Assembly: GCF_018555455.1 (NCBI RefSeq)
Contig: NZ_JAFEJU010000002.1
Coordinates: 62,001-126,000 of the forward strand
Source: Bifidobacterium colobi
GTDB taxonomy: Bacteria; Actinomycetota; Actinomycetes; Actinomycetales; Bifidobacteriaceae
Length of the DNA: 64,000 nucleotides
Reading direction: 5' to 3'
This document shows positions 42,557 through 47,720 of the stretch, one piece after another. The stretch's first letter is position 1. Every line of letters begins with the position of its first letter. The translations under genes were made by a program, and so were the position numbers. A model generated the notes under the pieces. It was given only the letters and a program-made list of their open reading frames with translations, did not search any database and was not told where the DNA came from.

Positions 42557-44110
42557 ATGAGCGTCAACGCGAGCACGGATAATCAAGCGGATAATCAGTC
42601 GAATACATCAGTGAATAATCACACCAATACTCAGTCAAAAAACCAGTCGAATAATCAGCGCATGCCGCGCACCAACGATCCGACCATTGCCAGCAACACC
42701 CACGGCCGCGGTTATGGCCGTATGCACACCATCGATAAGCGTCGCACCATCCACCCTGAGCAGGAGCGACTCACCGCCAAACATCCTGAGCTCAACATTG
42801 TGGACGCGCAAACCGTGGCCAGCATCGAGCGAGGCGACGCGGAAATCGACAAGGAGCGTGCGGCGGCCCGTGCGCAGGCGGCGAACAAACCAGCCCATCA
42901 TGGTCATGCGCTCGCCGGCATTCTGGGGCCTGCCTTTGTGGCGGCCGTGGCGTACGTGGATCCGGGCAATGTGGCGGCCAACGTGACCTCCGGTGCCCGG
43001 TACGGTTATCTGCTGGTCTGGGTGTTGGTGCTTGCCAATGCCATGAGTGTGCTGATTCAATACCAATCCGCCAAGCTCGGCATTGTCACCGGCAAATCAC
43101 TGCCGGAACTGCTGGGCGAGCGTATGCATGATGCCGGCCGATTCATGTTCTTCATGCAAGCCGAGGTCATCGCCATCGCCACCGATTTGGCGGAGCTGAT
43201 CGGCGGTGCCATCGCGCTGAACCTGCTGTTCGGATTGCCGCTGTTCGTCGGCGGCGTGGTGATTGGCGCTGTTTCCACCGTGCTACTGCTGTTCGAGGGC
43301 GGCAAAACGCACCGCCTGTTCGAGAAAATGGTGATCGCCCTGCTGTTGGTGATTACGTTCGGTTTCATTGCCGGACTGTTCATCGCGCCACCGAACCCAG
43401 CCGACGTGGCCGGCGGTCTCATTCCGCATTTCACCACCACGGACTCCGTGCTGATGGCATCCTCCATGCTGGGTGCCACGGTGATGCCGCATGCGATTTA
43501 TTTGCATTCCACGCTGGTGAACGATCATTACGCCGGCGGTCAGGCCAAGCCTTCCATCAAACGTCTACTTGATGGGTCCAAAGTCGATGTGTTTTGGGCG
43601 TTGGTGCTGGCCGGTACGGTGAATCTGAGTCTGCTGATTCTCGCCGCCAATTCCCTGTACGGCATGAAGGGCACTGATTCGATTGAGGGTGCCCAGCATG
43701 CGATTGTTTCCGTGCTCGGTCCGGTGATTGGTACGATCTTCTCCGTCGGATTGCTGGCCTCTTCGCTGAGTTCCACGTCGGTGGGTACGTATGCCGGTTC
43801 TGAGATCATGCATGGTTTACTGCGTATCAAGGCGCCGATGTGGGCTTGCCGCGTGGTGACGTTGGTGCCGGGTTTGATTGTGCTGTGGTTCGCGCCGAAT
43901 CCAACCGAAGCGTTGGTGATTGGTCAGGTGATTCTTTCCGTCGGCATCCCATTCGCCATCATTCCGTTGATGCGTTACACGCACGATAAGCAACTCATGG
44001 GCAAATGGGTGGACGGCCCGGTCAAACATGTGATCTTCATTGCTGTGGCCGCACTGATTATCGCGCTGAACGTGCTGCTCATCGTGCTGACGGTCCTCGG
44101 CAAAGCATGA
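42557..44110 (+). CDS. mntH: NRAMP-family divalent metal (Mn2+/Fe2+) transporter
   Basis: A 517-aa proton-coupled importer. The metal-site motifs are clear: DPGNVAANVTSGARYGYLLV in helix 1 and VMPHAIYLHS in helix 6. It has about eleven membrane segments. The N-terminus carries 115 extra residues; the first 40 are asparagine-, glutamine- and serine-rich, then a charged stretch follows. Most MntH proteins are 400-430 aa. AGAGAGG lies 13 nt before the ATG. The last 20 bases of the gene, stop codon included, are exactly duplicated next to it. Confidence 0.93.
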   Translation: MSVNASTDNQADNQSNTSVNNHTNTQSKNQSNNQRMPRTNDPTIASNTHGRGYGRMHTIDKRRTIHPEQERLTAKHPELNIVDAQTVASIERGDAEIDKERAAARAQAANKPAHHGHALAGILGPAFVAAVAYVDPGNVAANVTSGARYGYLLVWVLVLANAMSVLIQYQSAKLGIVTGKSLPELLGERMHDAGRFMFFMQAEVIAIATDLAELIGGAIALNLLFGLPLFVGGVVIGAVSTVLLLFEGGKTHRLFEKMVIALLLVITFGFIAGLFIAPPNPADVAGGLIPHFTTTDSVLMASSMLGATVMPHAIYLHSTLVNDHYAGGQAKPSIKRLLDGSKVDVFWALVLAGTVNLSLLILAANSLYGMKGTDSIEGAQHAIVSVLGPVIGTIFSVGLLASSLSSTSVGTYAGSEIMHGLLRIKAPMWACRVVTLVPGLIVLWFAPNPTEALVIGQVILSVGIPFAIIPLMRYTHDKQLMGKWVDGPVKHVIFIAVAALIIALNVLLIVLTVLGKA

Positions 44111-44130
44111 CGGTCCTCGGCAAAGCATGA
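44091..44130. repeat. Exact 20-bp tandem duplication at the mntH stop codon
   Basis: CGGTCCTCGGCAAAGCATGA occurs at 44091-44110 and again at 44111-44130. The first copy encodes the last residues and TGA stop of mntH; the second is non-coding and abuts the 21-bp repeat array. Confidence 0.97.
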
Positions 44131-44145
44131 CCGTCATTTTCACCG

Positions 44146-44282
44146 TTAACTGACGGTTTTATAACACTGACTGACGGTTATTAAACGCTGACTGACGGTT
44201 TTATAACGAATTCCGTTGGAAATCCTTCAGTCAATGTGAGAAATCCGTCAGTCAATGTTGGGAAACCGTCAGTTATTGTGTG
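44146..44282. repeat. Mirrored 21-bp repeat array, left copy
   Basis: Three 21-bp units of the type CTGACTGACGGTTTTATAACG (44146, 44167, 44188), an 11-nt centre AATTCCGTTGG (44209-44219), then three 21-bp units of inverted sense, type AAATCCGTCAGTCAATG plus 4 nt (44220, 44241, 44262). The two sides can pair through TTGACTGACGG/CCGTCAGTCAA, forming one long cruciform. Confidence 0.92.
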
Positions 44283-44333
44283 TGGGCGGCAGTAGGGACC
44301 TGTCTCCCATGAGGACTGTCTCGGACTATGCGT

Positions 44334-44375
44334 AATCGGTAGAACTGTCTTCAGAATCGGTAGAACCGTCTTCAG
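44334..44375. repeat. Two direct 21-bp repeats
   Basis: The unit begins AATCGGTAGAACTGTC and ends TTCAG; the second copy (44355-44375) differs at one base. A fragment of a third follows. The length equals the units of the neighbouring array but the sequence is unrelated. Confidence 0.85.
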
Positions 44376-44440
44376 AATATGTAGTCGGTTTTGATCACCT
44401 TGTGTGATTCCGACATAACGCGCAGATTGATAAGCGTCGA

Positions 44441-44465
44441 TGTGGATAACCAAAAGTTATCCACA
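44441..44465. promoter_or_regulatory. Inverted pair of DnaA-box sequences / candidate operator
   Basis: TGTGGATAA (44441-44449), 7 nt, TTATCCACA (44457-44465). Each half is the consensus DnaA box on opposite strands. As a hairpin it is a 10-bp stem with a 5-nt loop. It lies 80 nt upstream of the AbiEi-like gene, so it could equally be an autoregulatory inverted repeat. Confidence 0.7.
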
Positions 44466-44544
44466 GTGGTTGTTACTCCGTCATAGTATCCACAATTGCC
44501 GGAAGAGCTTGCGTAGTTTCGACCAACCCTTTTAGCGTTGGAAC

Positions 44545-45546
44545 ATGGGTACGTATTCATTAATCATGGAAAAGCTAATTGACGCTCAACGTCGAGGTCA
44601 GTGTATGAGAGCTTCGGGAGCTTCGGAGTACATGTTGCTCAAACGAATGACGGAGCGAGGCGAAGTCGTTCGAACATATCCCAATATGTACATGAACGGC
44701 GGCTACTGGAATGGACTGACACCTGCTGCACAGATGCTGCATATCATGCGAGCGATTTCAGCCGACAGTCCCGATACGGTGTTTGCTGGAATTTCGGCAG
44801 CATGTGCGTGGAATCTGGACCATTCGACGTACTTGCATACCCGGGATAGTCGAATTGTGATGGCTGCAAGTGGTGGGACGACTGCAAATGGTTATTGCAA
44901 GCAGATACGCAGATTCTATGTGCCGCAACATGAAATCGAACAGGCACAATGTGTTGCCGGGGTTAAAGTCACGAGTATTCAGCGTACGTTATTCGACTGC
45001 GGTCGCATGTATGAGCCTCGTAGTGCTCTGTCATTTTATGATTCAGCTATACGCCAAGGTTTGATTACTCAAGAGGACATTCTGAAATATACGTATGAAA
45101 AGCATCGCTGCCGTAATCAATTCCCGGCCCGTGCCCTTGCTGGTTTTGCCAATGGCCTTAGTGAAAATGGTGGCGAATCATTTTGCTATGCAACGATGGC
45201 TGAAGAAGGGATTAGTCTGCCGGAACAGCAGGTTGAATTTATTGATGTGAATAATGCAAACGCCGCGTATCGCGTTGATTATTTATGGAGATTGTCTGAT
45301 GGAAGCATAGTAGTTGGTGAGTTTGACGGACAAAAGAAGTACGTAGATCCTTCAATGGCCCAAGGCCAGAATGTCAGCGGCGTGGTCAGCCAGGAACGCA
45401 GTCGTCAGAATGCGCTGATGGCGCTCGGTGTGGATCGTTGTGTGCGATGGTTCTTTGCCGATGCGTACCATCGATTGCCTATGAAAAAAACTTTGGAGAA
45501 GGCTGGTGTGCCTATAGGCAAACCATATGCGCCATGGCTCCGATGA
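44545..45546 (+). CDS. AbiEi-like protein with nuclease-like C-terminus
   Basis: A 333-aa protein of a type common in actinobacteria. The N-terminal half resembles AbiEi antitoxins: a winged-helix start (ASEYMLLKRMTERGEVVRTY), LTPAAQMLHIMRAISADSPD and the core FAGISAACAWNL, then VTSIQRTLFDCGR near residue 155. The C-terminal part has a PD-(D/E)XK-like order: Glu near 211 (GGESFCYATM), Asp near 245 (VDYLWRL) and VVGEFDGQKKY near 259. No AbiEii toxin gene follows, so it is solitary. It is AT-richer than its surroundings and bracketed by repeat arrays. The start has no clear ribosome site; ATG 44566 is an alternative. Confidence 0.75.
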   Translation: MGTYSLIMEKLIDAQRRGQCMRASGASEYMLLKRMTERGEVVRTYPNMYMNGGYWNGLTPAAQMLHIMRAISADSPDTVFAGISAACAWNLDHSTYLHTRDSRIVMAASGGTTANGYCKQIRRFYVPQHEIEQAQCVAGVKVTSIQRTLFDCGRMYEPRSALSFYDSAIRQGLITQEDILKYTYEKHRCRNQFPARALAGFANGLSENGGESFCYATMAEEGISLPEQQVEFIDVNNANAAYRVDYLWRLSDGSIVVGEFDGQKKYVDPSMAQGQNVSGVVSQERSRQNALMALGVDRCVRWFFADAYHRLPMKKTLEKAGVPIGKPYAPWLR

Positions 45547-45759
45547 TTATAAGAGCGATTTTTGCTGCTGCTTGCTGCTTAACGCTAGTGTTTTCGTCGC
45601 CTATAATGATTGCTTTTTGTGTCCGCATTGCGTTAGTCATATCTATCGGCGGTTCGAATTAGTTGACATCTGTTGCTTGTCTGAGCCTAGCTGCTTGGTT
45701 CGTTGCTTGGTTCGGTGACAGGATTTCAGAAATCGAACTCAGTCCTCTCCTCAGCTTGA
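45547..45759. other. AT-rich intergenic segment after the AbiEi-like gene
   Basis: About 210 nt of lower GC than the chromosome. Short reading frames here are rich in Cys and hydrophobic residues but resemble no protein, and none has a convincing start. No convincing RNA or terminator seen. Confidence 0.45.
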
Positions 45760-45917
45760 TTGACTGACGGTTATCTAACATTGACTGACGGTTATTTAAC
45801 GCTGACTGACGGTTTTATAACGAATTTCGTTGGAAATCCTTCAGTCAATGTGAGGAATCCGTCAGTCGGTGTGGGAAATCCGTCAGTCAATGTGGGAAAT
45901 CCGTCAGTCAGTGGAGA
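45760..45917. repeat. Mirrored 21-bp repeat array, right copy
   Basis: Three plus-sense units (45760, 45781, 45802), an 11-nt centre AATTTCGTTGG (45823-45833), then four units of inverted sense (45834, 45855, 45876, 45897). The block 45802-45854 equals 44188-44240 at 52 of 53 positions. The last unit supplies the stop codon of the minus-strand MFS gene. Confidence 0.93.
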
Positions 45918-47614
45918 GAATGGAGCCGTTCGCGCAATGCGTGGAGTGATATGGCGTCGCGCATGTGGCCGGCACCGTCACCGCGCACGCCAAAGGCCAC
46001 CATGAGCACCATCACGAAGCAGATGCCGGCGGAAATACGCAGCGCCCACTGAATACCGAAAATCGAGGCAGCCACGTTGGATGCGCCGGAGGCGTGATTC
46101 CACGCGGCGAACGTTTCCATCAGAATCACCAGGACCGGAGCGCCCACCGCACCGGCAATCTGGCGTGCCGTGTTGGTCACCGATGAGCCAGCGGACACTT
46201 CATCCGGCCCGTTCAAACAATTCAACGACCATGTGGTAATCGGCATCAGCAGGAATCCCATGCCAATCTGGCGGACGAACTGGCAGATCGACACCCACCA
46301 GATCCACGTGTCCATCGCAACCAAAGACATGCCGATGGTACCAATCGTCAGCACGATCGAACCGAACAGGGCCACGGGTCGTGCGCCAAAGCGGTCCATG
46401 GCGCGCCCGCCAAAGAACTGGGAGACGCATTGGCCGATGGCGCCCGGCAGCATAATCAGGCCGCTCATCGTTGCCGTGAACCCACGATCGGTCTGGATAT
46501 AGAGCGGCATGATGACCAGAATCGAACTGAAGGCAAAGAACGCCAGCGACGCGGTAATGGTGCCTACGGTAAAGGAGCGGTTCTTCAGCACGCGAAGATC
46601 AAGCAGTGGAGGCTGCGGAAGGGCGTGCGGATGGGTTGGTGTTTCTGCTGTGGCGTTTACGCTGCTCATGCCCGCCGCCGCAATTCTGGCCTTGGCTTCA
46701 CGATAACGACGTCCGTGGCGCAGATTGCGCAGTACAAACCAGATGATGCCAATCAGGCCCACGATCATCGGCCCCCACACGGCTGGTGCGGCGAACCCGT
46801 AGGTTTCCGAATTGGTGAAGCCGAACATCAGCCCGCCGAAGCCGATCACCGACAGCGACACCGAGAAGAAGTCCGCGCGGGCGGAAGGATCGTGGGAACC
46901 GAAGTTATGCAGCCAGAATACGGCGGCGAGCAACGACAGTACGCCGATAATCGTCATGGTCAGGAAGATCGATCGCCATCCGTTGGCATCGGTTTGCCAT
47001 CCGCCCAACGTCGGTCCGATGGCCGGGGCGACGCTCATGGCCATGCCCACGGTGCCCATCGCGAAACCGCGGCGTGACAGCGGATAAATCGAGAATACGG
47101 TGATTTGCAGCACCGGCCACATCACGCCTGTACCCGCGGCCTCAAGCACGCGGCCGAGCAGCACCCACACAAAGTTCGGCCCGAGCCATGCCATGATCGA
47201 ACCGACGGTGAACACCGCCATCGAACAGATCACGATTTGGCGGGTGGAGAATCGGCGGGTCAGATATGCGGTCAATGGCACCATAACGCCCATGACCAGC
47301 TGGAATACGGATGTGAGCCATTGGCCGGTGGTGACGGAGATGCCGAATTCGCTAACGATGATTGGCAGCGCGGAACTTAATTGCAGCTGGGTAAAGTTTC
47401 CAACAAAAGTGATGAAGGTAAGAATGGCGATGGAAACGAATGCTGCACGGCTGAGTTTGCCGTCCACATAGGATTCCTCTTGGCTTAGTACACGCTGCAA
47501 TTCGCTAGTGCGATGTTTGATTCCGCTCTCTCCAGCCACACAACACTCCACTTCTGCGCTCGGTCGGAAAAGCTTAGGACTGGTGATTCGGCTCGGTGAT
47601 ACAGCCTGTTTCAT
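45908..47614 (-). CDS. MFS drug exporter, DHA2 family (14 TM)
   Basis: A roughly 568-aa multidrug efflux protein. Landmarks: LPIIVSEFGISVTTGQWLTS after helix 1, LTRRFSTRQIVICSMAVF (motif A region), VLLGRVLEAAGTGVMWPVLQ, and WRSIFLTMTIIGVLSLLAAV; a polar loop with an alanine/threonine-rich segment lies mid-protein. The frame is open to a GTG at 47683, but ATG 47614 has AGGGG next to it and is preferred; the first 60 residues are polar and poorly conserved in either case. Its TGA stop lies in the last 21-bp unit of the right repeat array. Confidence 0.87.
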   Translation of the reverse strand: MKQAVSPSRITSPKLFRPSAEVECCVAGESGIKHRTSELQRVLSQEESYVDGKLSRAAFVSIAILTFITFVGNFTQLQLSSALPIIVSEFGISVTTGQWLTSVFQLVMGVMVPLTAYLTRRFSTRQIVICSMAVFTVGSIMAWLGPNFVWVLLGRVLEAAGTGVMWPVLQITVFSIYPLSRRGFAMGTVGMAMSVAPAIGPTLGGWQTDANGWRSIFLTMTIIGVLSLLAAVFWLHNFGSHDPSARADFFSVSLSVIGFGGLMFGFTNSETYGFAAPAVWGPMIVGLIGIIWFVLRNLRHGRRYREAKARIAAAGMSSVNATAETPTHPHALPQPPLLDLRVLKNRSFTVGTITASLAFFAFSSILVIMPLYIQTDRGFTATMSGLIMLPGAIGQCVSQFFGGRAMDRFGARPVALFGSIVLTIGTIGMSLVAMDTWIWWVSICQFVRQIGMGFLLMPITTWSLNCLNGPDEVSAGSSVTNTARQIAGAVGAPVLVILMETFAAWNHASGASNVAASIFGIQWALRISAGICFVMVLMVAFGVRGDGAGHMRDAISLHALRERLHSLH

Positions 47615-47720
47615 CCCCTGCTGGACTCGGTGGCAGGTGCCATTTGCTTCTGTGCTTGGCCGGGCGGCACCTTTAGAAAGCACTCACATACACTACGCCG
47701 CGGGGTGGTCTGATGATGAT

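Follow-up and report, generated by a model that had tools for sequence, protein, structure and literature searches.

In a 64,000-nucleotide stretch of Bifidobacterium colobi DNA (the whole stretch analysed here, hereafter the window), the gap between mntH and a gene for an MFS transporter contains one gene flanked by a pair of mirrored arrays, each built from 21-bp units. What ties this gene to the repeats on either side of it? A sequence-only reading had proposed a small mobile or recombining unit, an insertion hotspot, or a repeat pair through which the island could be lost. We compared the arrays, the gene and the places they occupy among Bifidobacterium genomes, and followed the protein family beyond the genus.

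Organization of the island

Both arrays are present as first described, with 3+3 units on the left and 3+4 on the right, spaced 21 bp apart in both, and the two arms of an array join at a short dyad, AACG-N5-CGTT (Table 1). The near-identical inner core is slightly longer than the 53 bp claimed: 57 bp (44184-44240) with one mismatch. With the left array as BLAST query, the right array was matched at an E-value of 1.6e-46, while the strongest match beyond the island had 1.8e-31. The gene begins 264 nt after the end of the left array. Its lower GC is confirmed (0.485, with 0.479 for all sequence between the arrays and 0.581 for the 64-kb window), as is the earlier remark that the right array supplies the MFS stop codon, which lies inside the last unit at 45908-45910. 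The duplicated mntH end noticed before the left array is an exact 20-bp tandem copy (44088-44127) and occurs on one side of the island only.

Table 1. Features of the island and its neighbours, in window coordinates
Feature	Position	Strand	Details
mntH (Nramp), left neighbour	42557..44110	+	last 20 bp before stop repeated once, 44108-44127
Left mirrored array	44146..44280	.	3+3 units of 21 bp, GACTGACGGwTTnnnAACnnT
Left array units	44147, 44168, 44189 (+); 44224, 44245, 44266 (-)		
Left array dyad centre	44205-44217		AACGAATTCCGTT
DnaA box	44441..44449	-	TTATCCACA; faces next box
DnaA box	44457..44465	+	TTATCCACA; 88 nt before start codon
DnaA-box-like site	44486..44494	+	GTATCCACA; 59 nt before start codon; same place in G021 and G070
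Predicted AbiEi-fold / PD-(D/E)xK nuclease-fold gene	44545..45546	+	333 aa
AbiEi-like part	44545..45153	+	residues 1-203, winged helix about 1-58
PD-(D/E)xK nuclease-like part	45163..45510	+	residues 207-322
Right mirrored array	45760..45915	.	3+4 units; carries MFS stop codon
Right array units	45761, 45782, 45803 (+); 45838, 45859, 45880, 45901 (-)		
Right array dyad centre	45819-45831		AACGAATTTCGTT
MFS efflux-type transporter, right neighbour, convergent	45908..47683	-	

The bracketed gene and its predicted product

The 333-aa protein matches no Pfam or NCBIfam family at cut-off, and its family is labelled only 'hypothetical protein' or 'CTP synthase' in the source records. The structure model joins an AbiEi-like fold to a PD-(D/E)xK nuclease-like fold. 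Residues D245, E259, D261, G262, K265 and Y266 are invariant among 36 aligned homologues, and the nuclease motif is found in 50 of 50 homologues, whose reading frames were chosen with the ExDG motif as a bonus. From the modelled folds, the product is predicted to bind and to cut DNA. No transposase was matched in Pfam at E-values up to 1 in the 10 proteins searched.

Two readings were considered and rejected. For a known defence system, PADLOC returned AbiEi models only, as weak matches, and PHROGs a single match at chance level. Nor do phages or plasmids appear to be the source: nothing matched the gene among 50,697 phage records, and among 72,556 plasmid records a single match, at 30% identity, was found, while the exact array core was absent from the viral contigs and the left array from the plasmids.

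A dispersed family of arrays

The interpretation offered by the sequence-only reading is supported in part. That reading was right about arrays around a gene and mistaken in treating them as a pair: asking where else the core occurs shows that they belong to a dispersed family, gene-free copies included. With the left array as BLAST query, 20 places were found in the genome, itself and the right array among them. A relaxed 43-bp core occurs 21 times on each strand and adds one place missed by BLAST, giving at least 21. The smallest copy has one unit per side (L026), and the number of units varies within one slot, from 1+1 to 3+5 at L026 and from 2+4 to 6+4 at L025. The arrays are intergenic, with none inside a predicted gene at the examined loci of four species, and lie at a median of 51 nt from the 3' end of a gene. 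No avoidance of divergent gaps was seen for the arrays of this genome; a bias away from such gaps over four species (7 of 63 versus 41 of 210, p 0.14) was not significant and was dropped.

Mirrored sequence can fold and many arrays lie near 3' ends, as would be expected of elements acting at the RNA level, such as bidirectional terminators or 3'-end hairpins. Yet opposed units within an array show no more similarity to each other than do units taken from separate arrays (identity 0.59 versus 0.60 in this genome, and 0.64 versus 0.70, 0.66 versus 0.65 and 0.67 versus 0.69 in the others), so pairing is not maintained; this result refers to the 21-bp array in four species, and the palindromic repeat types of the wider family lie outside it. 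Moreover, none of the four terminator-like sites between 43900 and 46100 falls at either array, the only Rfam hits were two weak ones to a microRNA family, well below its gathering score, and the insignificant bias away from divergent gaps does not help the proposal. We rejected it as highly improbable. The lack of covariation in these alignments speaks against a hairpin and suggests that the arrays are recognised as DNA rather than as RNA.

Distribution of gene and arrays among relatives

Among 112 Bifidobacterium genomes, the strict core was found in three and the relaxed core in five. The array genomes are that of B. colobi itself (G000), B. cebidarum (G021), B. felsineum TRE H (G031), B. 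saguini (G070) and, with a variant array, G052, whose unit is very different (TGTCGGATTTCGACG type). In genome_contigs (84,980 species, possibly not including the own record), the exact core was found in 32 stretches, which belong only to B. cebidarum, B. felsineum and B. saguini. These three are also the nearest genomes by mntH identity (92-93%); the assignment to B. longum implied in the sequence-only reading is not established.

Orthologues with 62-71% identity are present in G021, G070 and G052, and the next best homologue has 46%. An orthologue occurs in four of the five array genomes and in none of the 107 others (Fisher p 8e-7, uncorrected for kinship). Each genome has one ortholog-level copy, and the order array, gene, array is found at one and the same place, between mntH and the MFS gene, in all four orthologue genomes, the own one included. 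In the mntH tree, four of the five array genomes group as a single clade; the co-occurrence of gene and arrays is partly a matter of shared descent, and it leans on one clade plus G052.

The B. felsineum genome G031 carries 13-14 arrays and no orthologue, and its mntH lies directly beside the MFS gene with neither gene nor array between them. In the mntH tree, G031 falls within the clade that also contains B. colobi, B. saguini and B. cebidarum (100/97); its position as the sister of B. cebidarum is moderately supported (92/85). Arrays in a genome without the orthologue imply that they either outlive the gene or do not need it. Another B. felsineum record contains a protein 71% identical over all 333 residues, and the presence of the gene may vary within this species.

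Such variable presence, together with the kinship of AbiEi to phage defence proteins, would suit a defence or selfish addiction module whose nuclease spares array-bearing DNA and attacks DNA without arrays; the persistence of arrays in G031 without the orthologue runs against such a module, which we consider very improbable indeed. Separately, the island-free gap downstream of mntH in this genome (L173, G031:C15) holds another repeat, of GGAGCTGTCAGCGAAGCTGAC type, and stretches resembling it were seen by eye around L092 and L118.

Old slots and changing units

At least 19 arrays lie outside the island in this genome, and 18 of them were compared between species (the array at C13:371777 lies outside this comparison). 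The relatives' arrays are those among the matches listed, and a slot without a counterpart is no proof of absence. For at least 16 of the 18 dispersed arrays, one or more of the three relatives has an array between the corresponding genes (among the matches listed). A 17th slot (L013; L242, L243) has an array in B. colobi and B. cebidarum, while in B. felsineum and B. saguini (L244, L241) the same slot is a short gap with no array; alignment of the slot with and without the array showed too much divergence for a target-site duplication to be read. L009 had no counterpart among the loci compared.

At these shared slots the unit itself differs genome-wide, GACTGACGG in B. colobi versus GACTGTAGG in the relatives. 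Across 18 shared slots, of which the island contributes two, the B. colobi units have the form GACTG-AC-GG in 64 of 97 cases, with AA instead in 15 and TA in 13; the TA form makes up 72 of 78 units in B. cebidarum, 39 of 46 in B. felsineum and 83 of 90 in B. saguini. Counted by slot, AC or AA has the majority in 15 of 18 in B. colobi, and TA in 15 of 15, 7 of 8 and 14 of 14 in B. cebidarum, B. felsineum and B. saguini, respectively. At the remaining variable positions, sharing a slot brought units no greater similarity than occupying different slots in five of six species pairs (p over 0.1), with B. felsineum-B. saguini as the exception (p 0.03; 5 to 15 slots per species pair). The central dyads behave differently, being identical in 13-71% of comparisons within slots versus 2-6% between slots.

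Judging by these comparisons, the slots are old and the units turn over, which is concerted change; it probably came about either through selection for binding or through copying. The presence of GACTGACGG in one lineage versus GACTGTAGG at the same slots looks like a natural switch of specificity, and this would make the joint evolution of a DNA-binding protein and its sites across the genome directly testable. Rapid evolution of the winged helix was considered as proof of such a switch and dropped. The winged helix is the most divergent part of the protein in every orthologue pair, for example in B. colobi and B. cebidarum (57% identity versus 73-75% in other parts) and in B. cebidarum and B. 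saguini (81% versus 87-90%). It is equally so in pairs that share a unit, and is therefore not specially fast where the unit changed. In one shared slot (L019, L065, L066, L169), the dyad has one orientation in B. colobi and B. felsineum and the opposite one in B. cebidarum and B. saguini, as though the inner array had been inverted within its slot.

Repeats around a gene and dispersed gene-free copies of them are also what an IS/MITE-type miniature element would leave, with the bracketed gene as its transposase and array, gene and array moving as a whole. Such movement fits poorly with one ortholog-level copy per genome in one slot of four genomes, with old slots, with zero phage matches and a single plasmid match at 30%, and with a protein of no transposase family; we regard it as improbable.

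Repeats of their own around homologous genes

The protein family extends far beyond the island, to 88 of the 112 Bifidobacterium genomes (E 1e-15 or better) and to 78 of 198 genomes of the order (E 1e-20), in 34 of 72 genera. A bracket test compared the 700 bp upstream with the 700 bp downstream of a gene, with a score of 35 or more as a pass. It was applied to 50 homologue loci, 30 of them the best match per genome and 20 hand-picked from the same list. The former were bracketed in 21 cases and the latter in 7, so that 28 of 50 homologues have their own repeat pair and 22 failed the test; none of 75 control ORFs, taken from this genome only, passed (maximum 31). At a score of 20 or more the counts were 32 of 50 homologues versus 4 of 75 controls. 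Mismatched pairs of loci with less than 50% protein identity reached 35 in 2 of 1104 cases, and thinning at 70% identity left 40 loci, of which 21 were bracketed. The L102 locus is truncated at a contig end. At L092 the score is due to a different repeat closer to the gene, the 21-bp arrays of this locus being about 714 and about 478 nt away.

The form of the repeat differs by gene, with mirrored arrays of 20-21 bp at L093, L095 and L097 and palindromes in clusters at L096, L100, L104 and L117. Specificity was assessed on gene-oriented flanks of the 28 bracketed loci, because synteny between close orthologues confounds a comparison that ignores orientation; upstream repeats were set against the downstream repeats of other genes, and 30 or more counted as a match. 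Matches fell with protein identity, from 8 of 8 pairs at 80% or more, through 5 of 8 at 60-80% (three pairs had no common repeat) and 5 of 28 at 50-60%, to 0 of 334 below 50%. The L104 repeat occurs at 11 places in its own genome (G041) and the L095 repeat at 14 in its own (G053), neither is found in 11 other genomes searched, and in both cases the two best copies adjoin the gene. The G052 array has 22 places in its genome; of the 10 other genomes searched, 8 have none, and G031 and G070 each contain a single weak match.

In another class, the homologue of Collinsella aerofaciens is bracketed with a score of 62, and its repeat occurs at 10 places in its 900-kb record. That record (L201, NZ_OY725717.1) is labelled as a plasmid and has glutamate synthase; the label may be wrong. 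Outside the Bifidobacteriaceae, 8 of 20 loci (L211-L231 without L219, which yielded no reading frame) score 50 or more, against a background raised by high GC; among these 20, the match of L225 looks like coding sequence, and the frames of L218 and L220 lack the usual motif. In the own genome, a second gene of the family (L122, G000:C19:63042-63974) is flanked by a different 50-nt palindrome that is 92% alike on both sides, one stop codon being counted in the match.

Since many homologues are bracketed by a private repeat pair, it is likely that every such protein both recognises the repeats belonging to it and renews them. The arrays could instead be host regulatory or chromosome-organising sites, bound by the AbiEi-fold protein or another factor (insulation, looping) and never copied, with the bracket reflecting autoregulation and a shared ancestral site. 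Slots common to several species, the intergenic position of the arrays at a median of 51 nt from a 3' end, and the autoregulation of AbiEi proteins through inverted repeats, reported in PMC7319586, are compatible with such sites. But different repeat types per gene lineage fit poorly with a fixed organiser site, as do the changing number of units within a slot, the slot that has an array in some species and none in others, and the retention of the nuclease motif by 50 of 50 homologues. We therefore judge host sites unlikely.

DnaA boxes before the gene

The TTATCCACA sequence found twice before the gene is box type A of B. longum, as listed in PMC2430713. A perfect copy lies within 300 bp upstream of 36 of 50 homologue genes and downstream of none of the 50, with a background of 10 in 558,940 bp, or 0.005 per 300 bp. 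When the seven B. longum box types given there are counted, 38 of 50 genes have one, versus a background of 0.018. Boxes are equally common before bracketed (22 of 28) and not bracketed genes (16 of 22), and were found at only 3 of 20 loci outside the Bifidobacteriaceae. Genes with quite different repeats share one box; from this pattern, DnaA would be a likelier reader of the box than the protein itself.

A possible repeat-renewing module and its known counterparts

Taken together, we think it probable, though well short of assured, that the island is a two-part module in which the protein recognises its own type of double-stranded DNA array and maintains the array population by cutting and repair-copying. 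By analogy with AbiEi proteins and their inverted repeats, each predicted winged helix would occupy a single unit, with a pair of them at the central dyad. The nuclease would act at or near the arrays, and repair of the cuts would bring in units copied from other arrays and from sister copies; the slots would then last while their units are replaced. DnaA may couple expression of the gene to replication. Units could also change in place through selection on binding sites alone, without copying.

The nearest parallel is the RAYT-REP pair (REPtron). RAYT genes, too, have REPs on their flanks (PMC2817692), exist as single copies passed on vertically (PMC8049555), and evolve together with their REPs (PMC8266576). 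The likeness to the island (PMC2817692, PMC8266576, PMC8049555) includes (i) a gene between cognate palindromic repeats with dispersed gene-free copies; (ii) a single-copy gene kept in place; (iii) repeats that follow the protein; and (iv) near absence from plasmids. The differences are that the island combines an AbiEi fold with PD-(D/E)xK where the REPtron, as described there, has an HUH/Y1 transposase, and that its array consists of 21-bp units without hairpin covariation. The island would work like a REPtron but is not one, having neither HUH transposase nor paired hairpins. By this analogy, it would correspond to the RAYT-REP pair while relying on an unrelated protein in place of the transposase that other bacteria use.

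Other systems share single traits. AbiE type IV toxin-antitoxin systems (AbiEi of Streptococcus agalactiae, Rv2827c; PMC7319586) have the fold of residues 1-203, and their AbiEi proteins bind 23-bp inverted repeats (PMC7319586), whereas here a nuclease is fused and the sites are dispersed through the genome; no AbiEii toxin lies next to the gene, whose neighbours are Nramp and MFS transporters. BIMEs, the mosaic clusters of REPs (PMC2817692), also have intergenic units in both orientations, but here tandem units flank one dyad on each side, 21 bp apart, and no similarity to REPs is claimed. The mobile integrase cassettes of B. longum (PMC2430713) consist of three xerC integrases and IS3 elements and differ in sequences and proteins. 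In the open-licence literature, we found no published treatment of this pairing of gene and repeat.

More tentatively, and with somewhat less than even confidence, we propose that the Actinomycetota may have invented the REPtron a second, independent time, as AbiEi-fold/PD-(D/E)xK nucleases with private mirrored or palindromic repeats, read as double-stranded DNA, that are renewed in place by cutting and copying under DnaA-timed expression, such that a change in protein specificity rewrites the repeats of a genome. The DnaA boxes hint that maintenance of the repeats is connected with replication. Where no RAYT transposase is present, short dispersed repeats of bacteria often lack an explanation. 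Should this protein family prove to be the partner of such repeats in the Actinomycetota, a large class of orphan genes and orphan repeats would account for each other.
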